This document shows positions 22,354 through 62,932 of a stretch of 64,000 nucleotides of DNA, piece after piece; the first letter of the stretch is position 1; each line of letters opens with the position of its first letter. A program made the translations under genes and the position numbers. The stretch comes from an uncultured Oscillospiraceae bacterium (GTDB lineage: Bacteria; Bacillota; Clostridia; Oscillospirales; Oscillospiraceae): contig CANROC010000005.1 in the NCBI GenBank assembly GCA_947632175.1, positions 1 through 64,000 on the forward strand, written 5' to 3'. A model generated the notes under the pieces. It did no database searches. It had not been told where the DNA came from and saw nothing but the letters and a program-made list of their open reading frames with translations.

Positions 22354-22716
22354 CCCGGGAGGCCGTGGGGGACGGGCCGCCAAGAGAGGCGGCCCCTACG
22401 GCGGTTGTTGTCGGATACGCAAAATTTCATAATTGCATATAGGTTGCTATGTAGGGGCGGACCCATGTGTCCGCCCCAGGTTGTCAAAAAACTCAAATCG
22501 AGCATTTTTTCCGGCGGCATGTACGTCGGAAAAAATACCTTTTGTTTTGCGGAGTGTGCGGCCCCAAAGGGGCCGTGCGCGGAGCAAAACGGCAGGGAAA
22601 TTTCGCGTGAATTTCGCAAAATTCACGGGGAATTTCCCGCACGTTCCCCTTTGGCGGAAAAGGCCGCAGGCCTTTTTCGACAGGCTGGGGCGGACCCATG
22701 GGTCCGCCCTTTTTGG
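22354..22716. repeat. Repeats between the permease and the sleB-like gene
   Basis: No gene. It contains a GGCCGCC-AAGAGA hairpin (22374-22399), an inverted GGCGGACCCATGTGTCC hairpin (22451-22477), copy 1 of a 200-nt four-hairpin element (22482-22684) and another GGCGGACCCATGGGTCC hairpin (22687-22709). The last doubles as a possible terminator. Confidence 0.85.
22482..22684 (+). repeat. 200-nt four-hairpin element, copy 1
   Basis: Four hairpins in series on the plus strand. H1: ATTTTTTCCG..CGGAAAAAAT. H2: GTTTTGC (22544-22550) pairing with GCAAAAC (22584-22590), with an inner GGCCCC/GGGGCC stem. H3: GGGAAATT..AATTTCCC with inner GTGAATTT/AAATTCAC. H4: AAAAGGCCGCAGGCCTTTTT, terminator-like. 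Copy 2 (23426-23621) is nearly identical outside H2. Confidence 0.85.
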
Positions 22717-23391
22717 TTATTTGCAGAAGCGGTGCTTGCCGATGGTGACGATGAGGGGGCGGGACCAGATCCAGGAGCTGGTGGCGGTGGCGGGGTTGAA
22801 GTAGTAGATGGCGCCGCCGGAGGGGTCGTGGCCGGAGAGGGCCTCGCGGGCGGCGCGGTAGGCGCTCTCACTGACGGGCTGGTCCCACTGGCCGTCGGAG
22901 AGGCAGGAGAACGCGCCCTTCTGGTAGATGACCCCGGCCATGGTGGAGGGGAAGGAGGGGTGCTCCATGCGGTTGAGGACCACCGCCCCCACCGCCACCT
23001 GGCCGGCGTAGGGCTCGCCCCGGGCCTCGGCGGAGATGAGCCGCGCCAGGAGATTTACGTCCCCCGACCCGGACCCGCCGCCGGAGGAGCCGGAGGGCAG
23101 GCCGATGGCGGCCAGGGTGGCGGGGCCGGCCACGCCGTCCACGGTGAGGCCGTTTTTGCGCTGGAACTTCTTGACGGCCTCCTCGGTGCGGGAGCCGTAG
23201 ACGCCGTCCACCGCGCCGTCGTAGTAGCCCCAATCGGAAAGGCGCTGCTGGAGCTTCTTCACCGTCTCGCCGGAGGAGCCGCGCTTATAGCTCTGGGCGT
23301 GGGCCTCCGGGATGGTCTGGGCCAGGGCGATGAGGGCGATGTTGACGGCGAAGACCACCGCCAGCGCCGCCGTAAGCTTTCTTTTATCCAT
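22717..23391 (-). CDS. SleB-like spore cortex-lytic enzyme
   Basis: 224 residues: signal peptide (to about AHA, residue 35), a PG_binding_1 domain (KKLQQRLSDWGYYDGAVDG..VKKFQRKNGL, about 43-98), a Gly/Ser linker and a Hydrolase_2 domain. The latter carries the catalytic Glu in LISAEARGEPYAGQVAVGAVVLNR. SleB is a lytic transglycosylase acting on muramic-delta-lactam cortex during germination. The ATG at 23391 follows GAGGTG; the GTG three codons earlier overlaps that site. It lies downstream of the gerK genes, separated by the second copy of the 200-nt repeat. It may equally be a vegetative SleB/CwlJ-family hydrolase. Confidence 0.87.
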   Translation of the reverse strand: MDKRKLTAALAVVFAVNIALIALAQTIPEAHAQSYKRGSSGETVKKLQQRLSDWGYYDGAVDGVYGSRTEEAVKKFQRKNGLTVDGVAGPATLAAIGLPSGSSGGGSGSGDVNLLARLISAEARGEPYAGQVAVGAVVLNRMEHPSFPSTMAGVIYQKGAFSCLSDGQWDQPVSESAYRAAREALSGHDPSGGAIYYFNPATATSSWIWSRPLIVTIGKHRFCK

Positions 23392-23425
23392 ATTCCACAC
23401 CTCAGTATTTCCAGTCTGTTCAGTC

Positions 23426-23621
23426 TGTCAAAAAACTCAAATCGAGCATTTTTTCCGGCGGCATGTACGTCGGAAAAAATACCTTTTGTCACGCAAGTGT
23501 GCCCCGCAGGGGCGCGCGCGGCGTGACGGCAGGGAAATTTCGCGTGAATTTCGCAAAATTCACGGGGAATTTCCCGCACGTTCCCCTTTGGCGGAAAAGG
23601 CCGCAGGCCTTTTTCGCCAGG
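23426..23621 (+). repeat. 200-nt four-hairpin element, copy 2
   Basis: Same four hairpins and orientation as copy 1. H2 differs: GTCACGC (23488-23494) pairs with GCGTGAC (23521-23527) in place of GTTTTGC/GCAAAAC, so three base pairs have changed on both sides. The inner stem is GCCCC/GGGGC. Confidence 0.85.
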
Positions 23622-23626
23622 TCGCC

Positions 23627-24715
23627 TCAGTATTTTTTTCTCAGCTTCCCCACGGCGCACATGAGGGGGATGAGGACTAGGGCGAAGGTCAGGTTGATGG
23701 CTGGGATGAGGACGTCCGACCATTTTTGGAAATCGAAGACGCCCTGGGCGATGAAAAAGGCCGCGACGCCGGCCAGGACGCCTGTGGGGGCCACGAAGGC
23801 GGCGCACTTTTTCGCGCCGGTGACGGTCCGCCAGATCTCCGCGACGATCATCAAAAGCGCCGCCACGAAGATGAAGTCCGTGACTACCCAGACGGCCACC
23901 ACCACCGCCTCTACCCGCTCCACCACGCCGAAGACCTTGATGTTGCGGATGACGATGAAGAAGGCGTTCTCCATGCTGACGGCCAGATGCTCGCCGATGG
24001 TGCCCAAGGTGAAGAAGGTCACGCCCAGGGCCACCGCCGTCAGGCCCGCCAGCCACGGAAAGCGGCGGGGGCGGGCCCCCGGCTTTTTCCGGACCCGGCC
24101 GCCCAGATAGAGGAAGTAGACAAACACGGTGAGCACGTTGAAAACCGGCAGGGAGCCGTATAAAACCCGCTTGCCGTCTTGGAGCGTCACCGGCAGGAGC
24201 CTTTCCGCCGACACGTCGGGGAGGGCGGAGAGGAGCACCGCCGCCAGCACGCCCACCAGAATGGGCATCAGCACCTCGGCGGTGCGGCTCAGGGCCTTGG
24301 TGGACCCGGCGCCCACCGCCGCCGCCACCAAAAGCATGACGACGATGAAGACGGCGGGGCTTCCGTTGGGGTAGACCGTGGCTAAAAGCCGCTCGGCGGC
24401 GCTGCGGCAGACGAAGCCCGCGTAAAAGGTGAGCCACAGGGCCGTAAGGACGTTGAAGGCCCGCCCCAATCCGCCCCCCAGGGCCGTTTGCGCCATATCC
24501 GCCAGCCCCGCGCCCTCCGGGACATTTTTCCCGAAGGCGTCCATGACCGCCAGCAGCAGCCGGCCCAGCAAAAACGCCGGGAGGGGGGCCAGCCACGCCG
24601 CCCGGCCGGCGAAGACCACGGCGGAGGTGGGCAGGATGCGGATCATGGGGGAGAGGAGGCTTACGAAGATGAGGACGGTCAGTTGTCTTTGAGTGATTCC
24701 GTCAGCTTTTCCCAC
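23627..24715 (-). CDS. gerKB: Spore germination receptor permease subunit (GerAB/GerKB family)
   Basis: 362-residue, ten-helix amino-acid-permease-like protein of the endospore germination (GerAB) family, the germinant-binding B subunit in the spore inner membrane. The N-terminus ITQRQLTVLIFVSLLSPMIRILP is typical. GTG start behind GGAGATGACGCC. It overlaps the end of the upstream C subunit by 37 nt, so the operon order is KA-KC-KB. Confidence 0.92.
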   Translation of the reverse strand: MGKADGITQRQLTVLIFVSLLSPMIRILPTSAVVFAGRAAWLAPLPAFLLGRLLLAVMDAFGKNVPEGAGLADMAQTALGGGLGRAFNVLTALWLTFYAGFVCRSAAERLLATVYPNGSPAVFIVVMLLVAAAVGAGSTKALSRTAEVLMPILVGVLAAVLLSALPDVSAERLLPVTLQDGKRVLYGSLPVFNVLTVFVYFLYLGGRVRKKPGARPRRFPWLAGLTAVALGVTFFTLGTIGEHLAVSMENAFFIVIRNIKVFGVVERVEAVVVAVWVVTDFIFVAALLMIVAEIWRTVTGAKKCAAFVAPTGVLAGVAAFFIAQGVFDFQKWSDVLIPAINLTFALVLIPLMCAVGKLRKKY

Positions 24716-28409: not shown

Positions 28410-28438
28410 TTGACAAATTGCTTAATTTGTGTTATAAT
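28410..28438 (+). promoter_or_regulatory. Solo promoter with spacer palindrome, site 1 (antisense to hfq)
   Basis: TTGACA (28410-28415), a 17-nt spacer, TATAAT (28433-28438): a near-perfect sigma-A promoter. The spacer contains ACAAATTGCTTAATTTGT, a perfect 7-bp inverted repeat that looks like an operator. It points into the 3' end of hfq on the opposite strand; no plus-strand gene follows. Confidence 0.8.
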
Positions 28439-48614: not shown

Positions 48615-48643
48615 TTGACAAATCGTTTGATTTGTGGTATAAT
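48615..48643 (+). promoter_or_regulatory. Solo promoter with spacer palindrome, site 2
   Basis: TTGACA (48615-48620), a 17-nt spacer, TATAAT (48638-48643). The spacer palindrome reads ACAAATCGTTTGATTTGT. It leads straight into the MITE-like element; the next gene is on the opposite strand. Confidence 0.8.
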
Positions 48644-62701: not shown

Positions 62702-62920
62702 ATGAATAAACCCAAGCAGAAACAGAGATTCCCCCTGCTGCAACCTCTTCGAAAAAAAGCGCTTTTAACCGCTTATTCCAAAGCTGGCTTTGAAAGCGCT
62801 TCGCGCCTTCAGATGCCAAGGGGAAACGTACGGTGTTTTTCCCGACGTACACCGCCGGACAAATGCTCGATGAGGGATTTGTCCGCTTTCTTCAGATATG
62901 CGTATTATACCACAAAATAG
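62702..62920 (+). pseudogene. Broken gene start running into a decayed repeat
   Basis: The ATG at 62702 has a perfect AAGGAGG (62687-62693), and the first codons (MNKPKQKQRFPLLQPL) look like a real basic N-terminus. From about codon 17 the frame enters sequence matching an inverted, decayed copy of the 200-nt element and loses protein character; it ends at 62920 (72 codons). Probably the 5' remnant of a gene cut by that repeat. Confidence 0.45.
62755..62895 (-). repeat. 200-nt element, decayed inverted copy 3
   Basis: The H1 region is recognisable in reverse orientation (CCCGACGTACACCGCCGG, then AATGCTCGAT). So are CCAAGGGGAAACGTACGG, next to H4 in the full copies, and an altered H4 with AAAGCGC arms. 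H2 and H3 are deleted. Confidence 0.65.
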
Positions 62921-62932
62921 ATGATTTGTCAA
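62904..62932 (-). promoter_or_regulatory. Solo promoter with spacer palindrome, site 3
   Basis: Minus strand: TTGACA (62932-62927), a 17-nt spacer, TATAAT (62909-62904). The spacer has ACAAAT..ATTTTGT, a slightly imperfect version of the palindrome in sites 1 and 2. It reads into the decayed repeat copy 3 and then toward mntA. Confidence 0.78.

Follow-up and report, generated by a model that had tools for sequence, protein, structure and literature searches.

A dispersed four-hairpin element on both sides of a sleB-like gene in an Oscillospiraceae genome, probably a MITE moved by an IS1182-type transposase

The window, that is the whole stretch of 64,000 nucleotides that was analyzed, contains two repeats of like orientation that flank a SleB-type gene; together with their terminal repeats they span positions 22,477-23,624. 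The earlier note had described this pair at 22482-22684 and 23426-23621; both copies are present, and their terminal repeats extend slightly past these limits. The gene lies outside the element. It was called at 22717..23391 on the minus strand as a sleB-like spore cortex hydrolase gene, and its product contains PF07486 (Hydrolase_2) and PF01471 (PG_binding_1). The adjacent genes encode an ABC-2 permease and a GerAB/GerAC/GerA spore-germination set. Several entries of the ORF list overlap the repeats, but the fast-changing stems argue against a conserved protein in the element.

Copy 1 occupies 22477..22687 on the plus strand, with the left terminal repeat at 22477-22490 and the right one at 22674-22687. 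Four plus-strand hairpins are predicted in it: hairpin 1 (22504..22536, also called by a terminator scan), hairpin 2 (22543..22591, with outer arms GTTTTGC/GCAAAAC and an inner stem with conserved U·G pairs), hairpin 3 (22592..22640, a near-perfect palindrome whose stem varies most among the copies of this genome) and hairpin 4 (22653..22682, built on the right terminal repeat). The target terminator hairpin stands on both sides. Its left copy (22454..22477) is not followed by a T-tract, matches 22687-22709 and has its last base in common with the element end. Its right copy (22687..22709, plus strand) is followed by a T-tract at 22710-22714. The empty site of the closest relative, G015, has this hairpin once.

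Copy 2 occupies 23412..23624 on the plus strand and opens with a nine-base repeat of the beginning of the terminal repeat. The predicted hairpins are, again on the plus strand, hairpin 1 (23448..23480, also called by the terminator scan), hairpin 2 of the GTCACGC/GCGTGAC type (23487..23528), hairpin 3 (23529..23577) and hairpin 4 (23590..23618). Flank comparison places the target duplication, 11 identical bases CCTCAGTATTT, at 23400..23410 on the left and 23625..23635 on the right. On the minus strand at 23404-23431 the left terminal repeat, read outward, gives TTGACA, and AATACT stands 16 nt further on; this is a 10/12 promoter-like match aimed at sleB. Copy 2 may thus both split the gerAB-sleB pair and supply a hybrid promoter. 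Dispersed palindromes of the form GGGCCGCC...GGCGGCCCCTACGG adjoin copies at window positions 22370-22402 and in several other flanks, and are probably a separate repeat family.

All four hairpins proposed earlier for each copy are predicted, in folds far more stable than those of shuffled sequences. The predicted minimum free energies are -100.3 kcal/mol for copy 1 and -103.8 kcal/mol for copy 2 (z -7.6 and -9.4), and 0 of 200 shuffles was as stable as the native sequence for either copy. The opposite strand of copy 1 folds more weakly, at -81 versus -100.3 kcal/mol. The last hairpin, taken earlier to resemble a terminator, does so by its fold, but hairpin 4 is not called by the terminator scan; its calls are hairpin 1 in both copies and the target hairpin beside copy 1, at about 22687-22710.

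The window's own genome is a draft of 82 contigs, in which a whole-genome search with copy 1 as query gave 50 matches. A search of the genome and its relatives with a covariance model had been suggested in the earlier note. Such a model, R1, was built from 34 own copies; at E 0.001 it gave 119 matches in the own genome. These fall at 85 distinct places, of which 75 reach E 1.8e-12 or better. R1 matches were found in 31 of the 34 genomes of the genus, with 1 to at least 43 per genome. A pattern scan of GTDB representatives, a set possibly not including the window's own record, gave 82 stretches. All 80 that were listed come from MAGs with names beginning Lapin, 79 from Oscillospiraceae and one from Lachnospiraceae. 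The name suggests a rabbit gut source.

Beyond the genus, R1 at 1e-5 matches 42 of 394 genomes of the order (four in the genus, 21 in the rest of the family and 17 in other families). Twenty copies from these genomes were read together with L102. Sixteen of the 21 could be aligned, since they have in common the loop of hairpin 1, the inner stem of hairpin 2 and a linker resembling ACnUCUCAG; nine of the 21 have GCCTCGCAGAGTT and one more hairpin on the 5' side of hairpin 1, and others have variants of it. Both terminal repeats and a flanking repeat were recognized in six copies from outside the genus (L291, weakly, L292, L293, L297, L300 and L304). A class-wide search with a model of the core matched 8 of 391 genomes: three of this family, with at least 11 matches each, and five outside the order with one weak match each, of 39-53 bits, which may be chance. 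As these last matches are single and weak, the multi-copy family is known here only within the order. One viral contig (IMGVR_UViG_2788500303_000007, L320 1841-1861) also has the pattern of linker and hairpin 2 that is seen in copies outside the genus. A subfamily with about 60-105 extra structured bases at the hairpin-2 tip occurs in several species; in the own genome it is found at C4:19683, C11:40639, C1:243094, C9:80395 and C1:5609 (L033-L035, L037, L038), and in relatives it gives matches of about 245-290 nt.

An Rfam scan of the window found tRNA only, and Rfam E-value scans of 26 loci (6 + 20) gave no match at gathering. The best hit, ylbH-leader-like at L030:2283-2408 (E 8.4e-6), falls beyond the limits of the element; the remaining hits were taken for chance. 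No description of the element was found in the literature titles and abstracts searched, a scope that takes in few of the subscription papers.

Base pairing was followed in three alignments. Alignment A1 holds 34 own copies aligned with MAFFT and no structure fitting; it omits six of the first 40 copies, five with the long hairpin-2 tip and L014. Alignment A3 holds 89 of 109 relative loci (L081-L109, L144-L223) and, being aligned to R1, leans to the R1 structure. Alignment A5 covers the core of hairpins 1 and 2 in 15 genus copies and 16 copies from three families outside; L291-L293, L307 and L308, which have a second hairpin of another form, are omitted, and family f19 is therefore absent. Two-sided changes affect 36 of 73 pairs in A1 (20.5 in shuffles and at most 21 in slid structures) and 233 cells (62 and at most 59), and in A3 57 of 72 pairs (32 and at most 37) and 721 cells (162 and at most 155), counts that are not to be read as probabilities because related copies are not independent and the controls model relatedness incompletely. 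In A5, 27 of 31 pairs changed on both sides. Cells remain paired in 97.8% of 6022 cases in A3; pairing of hairpin 4 is 82.9% with all A1 copies included. Covariation over the controls, as in a structured RNA family, was thus found in A1, A3 and A5, and the selection on a folded form that the earlier note had proposed stands well above both shuffled and slid controls.

The window pair itself is a different matter. The two copies are nearly identical except in hairpin 2, as had been stated: of the 24 A1 columns that differ, 23 belong to hairpin 2 (columns 48-90) and the other is column 187, and a few terminal-repeat bases outside A1 differ as well. The arms GTTTTGC/GCAAAAC and GTCACGC/GCGTGAC are exact and pairing is kept. 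This difference had been taken to suggest selection on a folded form; as evidence of compensation in place it is poor, as the exchange of a module is simpler. Among the 34 own copies the outer arms of hairpin 2 fall into five types (24 GTTTTGC, 4 GTCACGC, 4 GTCGCCC and two single ones), and the first 12 bases of hairpin 3 into 18 types, in 21 combinations; the hairpin-3 type that both window copies share occurs with three hairpin-2 types. Recombination between subfamilies, with hairpin 2 exchanged as a unit, is therefore the somewhat better supported account of the window pair. It does not cover the whole family: 12 copy pairs differ in the hairpin-3 stem by exactly one two-sided pair change, and A·C or C·A intermediates are present in four of the 34 copies, which shows that true compensatory steps also occur. 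Across the family, compensatory change is real.

The mobility of the element had been overlooked in the earlier note, with its terminal inverted repeats, target duplication and IS1182-family partner. Many copies have imperfect terminal inverted repeats that start with CAG-N-Y-TGTC-R-AAAA and end with the inverted form, and the common form of the element is about 200-210 bp long. Both window sites are empty in G015, in which sleB is 97% identical, and site 2 is also empty in the relative G017. At site 1, G015 has one terminator hairpin and the window has two, flanking the element; upstream of it the window has about 95 bp of other sequence versus 17 bp in G015. At site 2 the window has two copies of a stretch of 11 bp (12 with one mismatch) that links the gerAB stop with the sequence preceding the sleB start; G015 has this stretch once, as does G017, where it differs at one place.

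Flanks were surveyed for 165 copies with usable flanks from the own genome, the relatives and outside. By a simple pattern, both terminal repeats are present in 63. A direct flanking repeat above the 99% point of 630 mismatched flank pairs accompanies 47 of these 63 (12/15 own, 29/42 from relatives, 6/6 from outside), and 37 top all 630 mismatched pairs. The flanking repeats are 11-37 nt long, and 43 of the 47 contain a stem of at least six pairs, versus 346 of 940 random window pieces of the same length. The orientation of the target terminator relative to the element appears mixed by eye. Among the 102 copies that miss one or both terminal repeats, 19 pass the same threshold. At C13:82153, C9:80395 and, by eye, L209 the duplicated target hairpin has its loop inverted between the flanks, which would fit a cruciform route.

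A partner for these ends was met in G015. When the end pattern was searched in four relatives, an inverted pair 1.5 kb apart was found in that genome, enclosing one transposase gene of 473 codons and flanked by identical 31-bp hairpins. The transposase belongs to the IS1182 family (NF033551, 385 bits versus a cut-off of 270) and has the domains PF05598 and PF13751 (DUF772, DDE_Tnp_1_6). The small element and the IS1182-family element have the same ends and the same duplication of a whole target hairpin. Relatives of the transposase are present in 18 of 34 genus genomes: near full length and open in G015, G030, G001 and G013, in two pieces in G011, and more distant or fragmentary in the others. 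Of ten IS loci looked at, seven have both ends, and the palindrome is directly duplicated around all seven. A more distant IS1182 group (L276 in G032, L289 in G020) has ends CAGTCTGTCGACAAAC or CAGACTGTAGACAAAC, and whole palindromes are duplicated there too. Two IS1182-like genes or fragments of the own genome (C48, C39) were rejected as partners, their end matches, with up to two mismatches, being single and inside other genes. End-matches that stand alone elsewhere belong to copies that are truncated or cut by a contig end (L043, L046, L047), or are probably due to chance (L044, L045).

Shared ends, shared target behaviour and empty sites point, on sequence evidence, to mobility by an IS1182 transposase. 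The element is accordingly read as a MITE that is probably moved by an IS1182-type transposase and carries a conserved four-hairpin RNA, with a rough probability of 0.75. Several results count against this reading. An intact partner IS was not found in the 82 contigs of the window's own assembly (best E 1.9e-4), the 102 copies without both terminal repeats form the larger part of the survey, 16 of the 63 two-ended copies have no flanking repeat over the threshold, 10 of the 47 that do fall inside the range of the mismatched pairs, and the 11-bp duplication of copy 2 is not palindromic.

Many copies lie close to the ends of genes, judged with genes from a small purpose-made gene finder. In 28 of 61 own copies the right end falls between -22 and +14 nt relative to the stop codon of a gene that opposes the element. 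The left repeat is missing in 35 of 59 own copies by a crude test that misjudges some (e.g., C11:40639); the downstream gene is an opposing one at 33 of these 35 versus 16 of the 24 with the repeat. Twenty-five of the 28 stop-abutted genes, plus the window's spore permease, were scanned for protein families. They include, as a descriptive list, tuf, tsf, rplL, rplT, rpsR, hpf, gdhA, rubrerythrin, spo0A, an HSP90, a phosphopantetheine-carrier protein and rpoC, the last assigned by its C-terminal part under the whole-protein cut-off; several of the genes scanned have no family match. At 27 tuf 3' ends of the genus, the element directly follows the stop in nine (one of these copies is cut or interrupted near a contig end and one is reduced), a terminator and the element follow in five, and an ordinary terminator with an element-free stretch is present in 13. 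Several orthologous tuf copies have, by eye, quite different stems that still pair. In G006 an element-like insert with an extra 5' hairpin lies between two copies of a tuf terminator (L257).

A broader view is put forward tentatively, as a less likely possibility. The family may be a line of mobile RNA genes in several families of the order. Its RNA would have four or five hairpins, conserved linkers and an invariant U·G pair, IS1182-type transposition would have carried it into terminators, and copies would have been taken over as 3'-end or antisense modules directly after the stops of core genes (tuf, tsf, rplL, rpoC). It is doubtful that the copies are true regulatory RNA genes, often trans-acting, that acquired transposon ends and spread as a mobile gene, the working copies being those that abut stops and have no left repeat, some with a promoter. 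The position of 28 copies at opposing stops, including those of core genes, and the nine stop-abutting copies at tuf, two of them incomplete, would agree with such genes, as would pair 59-92, which is U·G in 31 of 31 A5 cores. So would the 10 of 61 own copies in which a perfect TTGACA-N17-TATAAT precedes the R1 match by 34-37 nt; it is missing in the other 51, however, the upstream sequences are mosaic, and the whole 64-kb window has four matches of the TTGACA-N17-TATAAT type, so similar promoters also stand elsewhere.

Strand bias helps to choose between RNA and DNA as the folded form. Where one strand has a G·U pair the other has an A·C mismatch, and such a bias therefore separates an RNA from symmetric DNA palindromes. 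G·U exceeds A·C in wobble cells by 216 to 7 in A1 (distinct states 16 versus 5), a count that for hairpin 4 excludes 10 of the 34 copies, in which this hairpin aligned differently, and by 596 to 31 in A3 (47 versus 23), a bias in cells much of which comes from a few sites with at least 15% wobble. At these sites the ratios are 8:0 in A1, 9:0 in A3 and 5:0 in A5. As the common wobble sites have G·U and never A·C, the plus-strand RNA is the constrained form. The earlier note had left it at a folded DNA or RNA; the asymmetry favours the RNA of the plus strand and speaks against symmetric DNA palindromes. That DNA alone is at work, with palindromes kept by hairpin-templated repair or transposase recognition and no selection on RNA, is accordingly unlikely. 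The stems are near-perfect inverted repeats, hairpin 3 above all, which by itself is nearly strand-symmetric with a weaker bias of 10:4 and 59:14, and the inverted loops of a few target hairpins hint at DNA hairpin processing; such an account leaves the wobble ratios and the conservation of unpaired positions across families without a place. REP/BIME-type palindromes moved by RAYT, or guide RNAs of the IS605/IS110 type, are also small dispersed hairpin elements, but are a very improbable identity for an element with terminal inverted repeats, long target duplications, a DDE transposase of the IS1182 family with the same ends and, in the loci scanned, no Rfam match at gathering.

For the MITE reading the following course of events is proposed. 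A non-autonomous DNA transposon would be moved by an IS1182-family transposase encoded elsewhere. The usual target would be the palindrome that forms an intrinsic terminator, probably extruded as a cruciform in the way of the published IS1272 model, and joining at the 5' feet of the stem-loop would leave the whole hairpin on both sides, the duplication seen in the sequence. The interior would act as a plus-strand RNA made up of hairpin 1, a short linker, hairpin 2 with the invariant U·G, and hairpins 3 and 4. Covariation and wobble bias show the constraint on the RNA strand, and transcription of the element is putative. At copy 1 the left terminator copy appears to have lost its T-tract at the junction, which would permit read-through; transcripts of an upstream gene on the same strand would then continue into the element and stop at its hairpins or at the right terminator copy. 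In a subset of copies the sigma-70-type promoter 34-37 nt upstream of the conserved part may start transcription. The most likely immediate role of the fold would be to give a benign or useful transcript 3' end, by which insertion into a terminator is tolerated. The conservation of linkers and wobble pairs hints at a binding partner as well.

ERIC, Correia and REPIN are likewise small mobile sequences with folded forms, a likeness by description and not by sequence. Among known transposons, IS1272 and TnSha1 of the IS1182 family insert in stem-loops that are often transcription terminators, and passages in PMC4923244 and PMC5678879 describe insertions in which the stem-loop is partly or wholly removed without target duplication. 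They resemble the present case in the IS1182-family transposase and the stem-loop or terminator targets. They differ in that the hairpin is removed, whereas the window family duplicates the whole hairpin, a difference that also counts against the MITE reading, and in that what moves here is for the most part a non-coding MITE whose RNA fold is conserved. Replacement of the IS1272 type, with deletion of the stem-loop, was not seen where the outcome could be judged; the stem-loop was duplicated. Such a duplication is listed as an alternative outcome in the model of PMC5678879.

The pneumococcal repeats BOX, RUP and SPRITE, as presented in PMC3049150, are small and dispersed with strong secondary structure, and SPRITE is terminator-like and enriched near gene 3' ends. 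The likeness is again one of description; compared with that account the window family has four hairpins, extensive compensatory change and an identified IS partner, lies inside terminators and occurs in several families of one order. Bacterial MITEs in general, as characterized in PMC10969869, are also short and non-coding with terminal inverted repeats, target duplication and a partner IS. Compared with them the window family usually duplicates a whole hairpin (repeats of 11-37 nt), and has inside it a constrained RNA in which one wobble pair is invariant.

The element joins two fields that are usually apart, that of hairpin-recognizing DDE transposases and that of non-coding RNAs whose fold is conserved over many species. 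The hairpin-duplicating outcome, drawn as an alternative in the IS1272 model, occurs here at dozens of natural sites. The abundance of the family makes it a natural experiment on the replacement of core-gene terminators, and the RNA, which has no Rfam match, is conserved in gut bacteria. A promoter-like segment of the type TTGACAAAT...TTTGTG is recurrent in the genome, with window occurrences at 28410-28438 (+), 48615-48643 (+) and 62904-62932 (-), and similar segments lie downstream of sleB in three element-free relatives (L117-L119).
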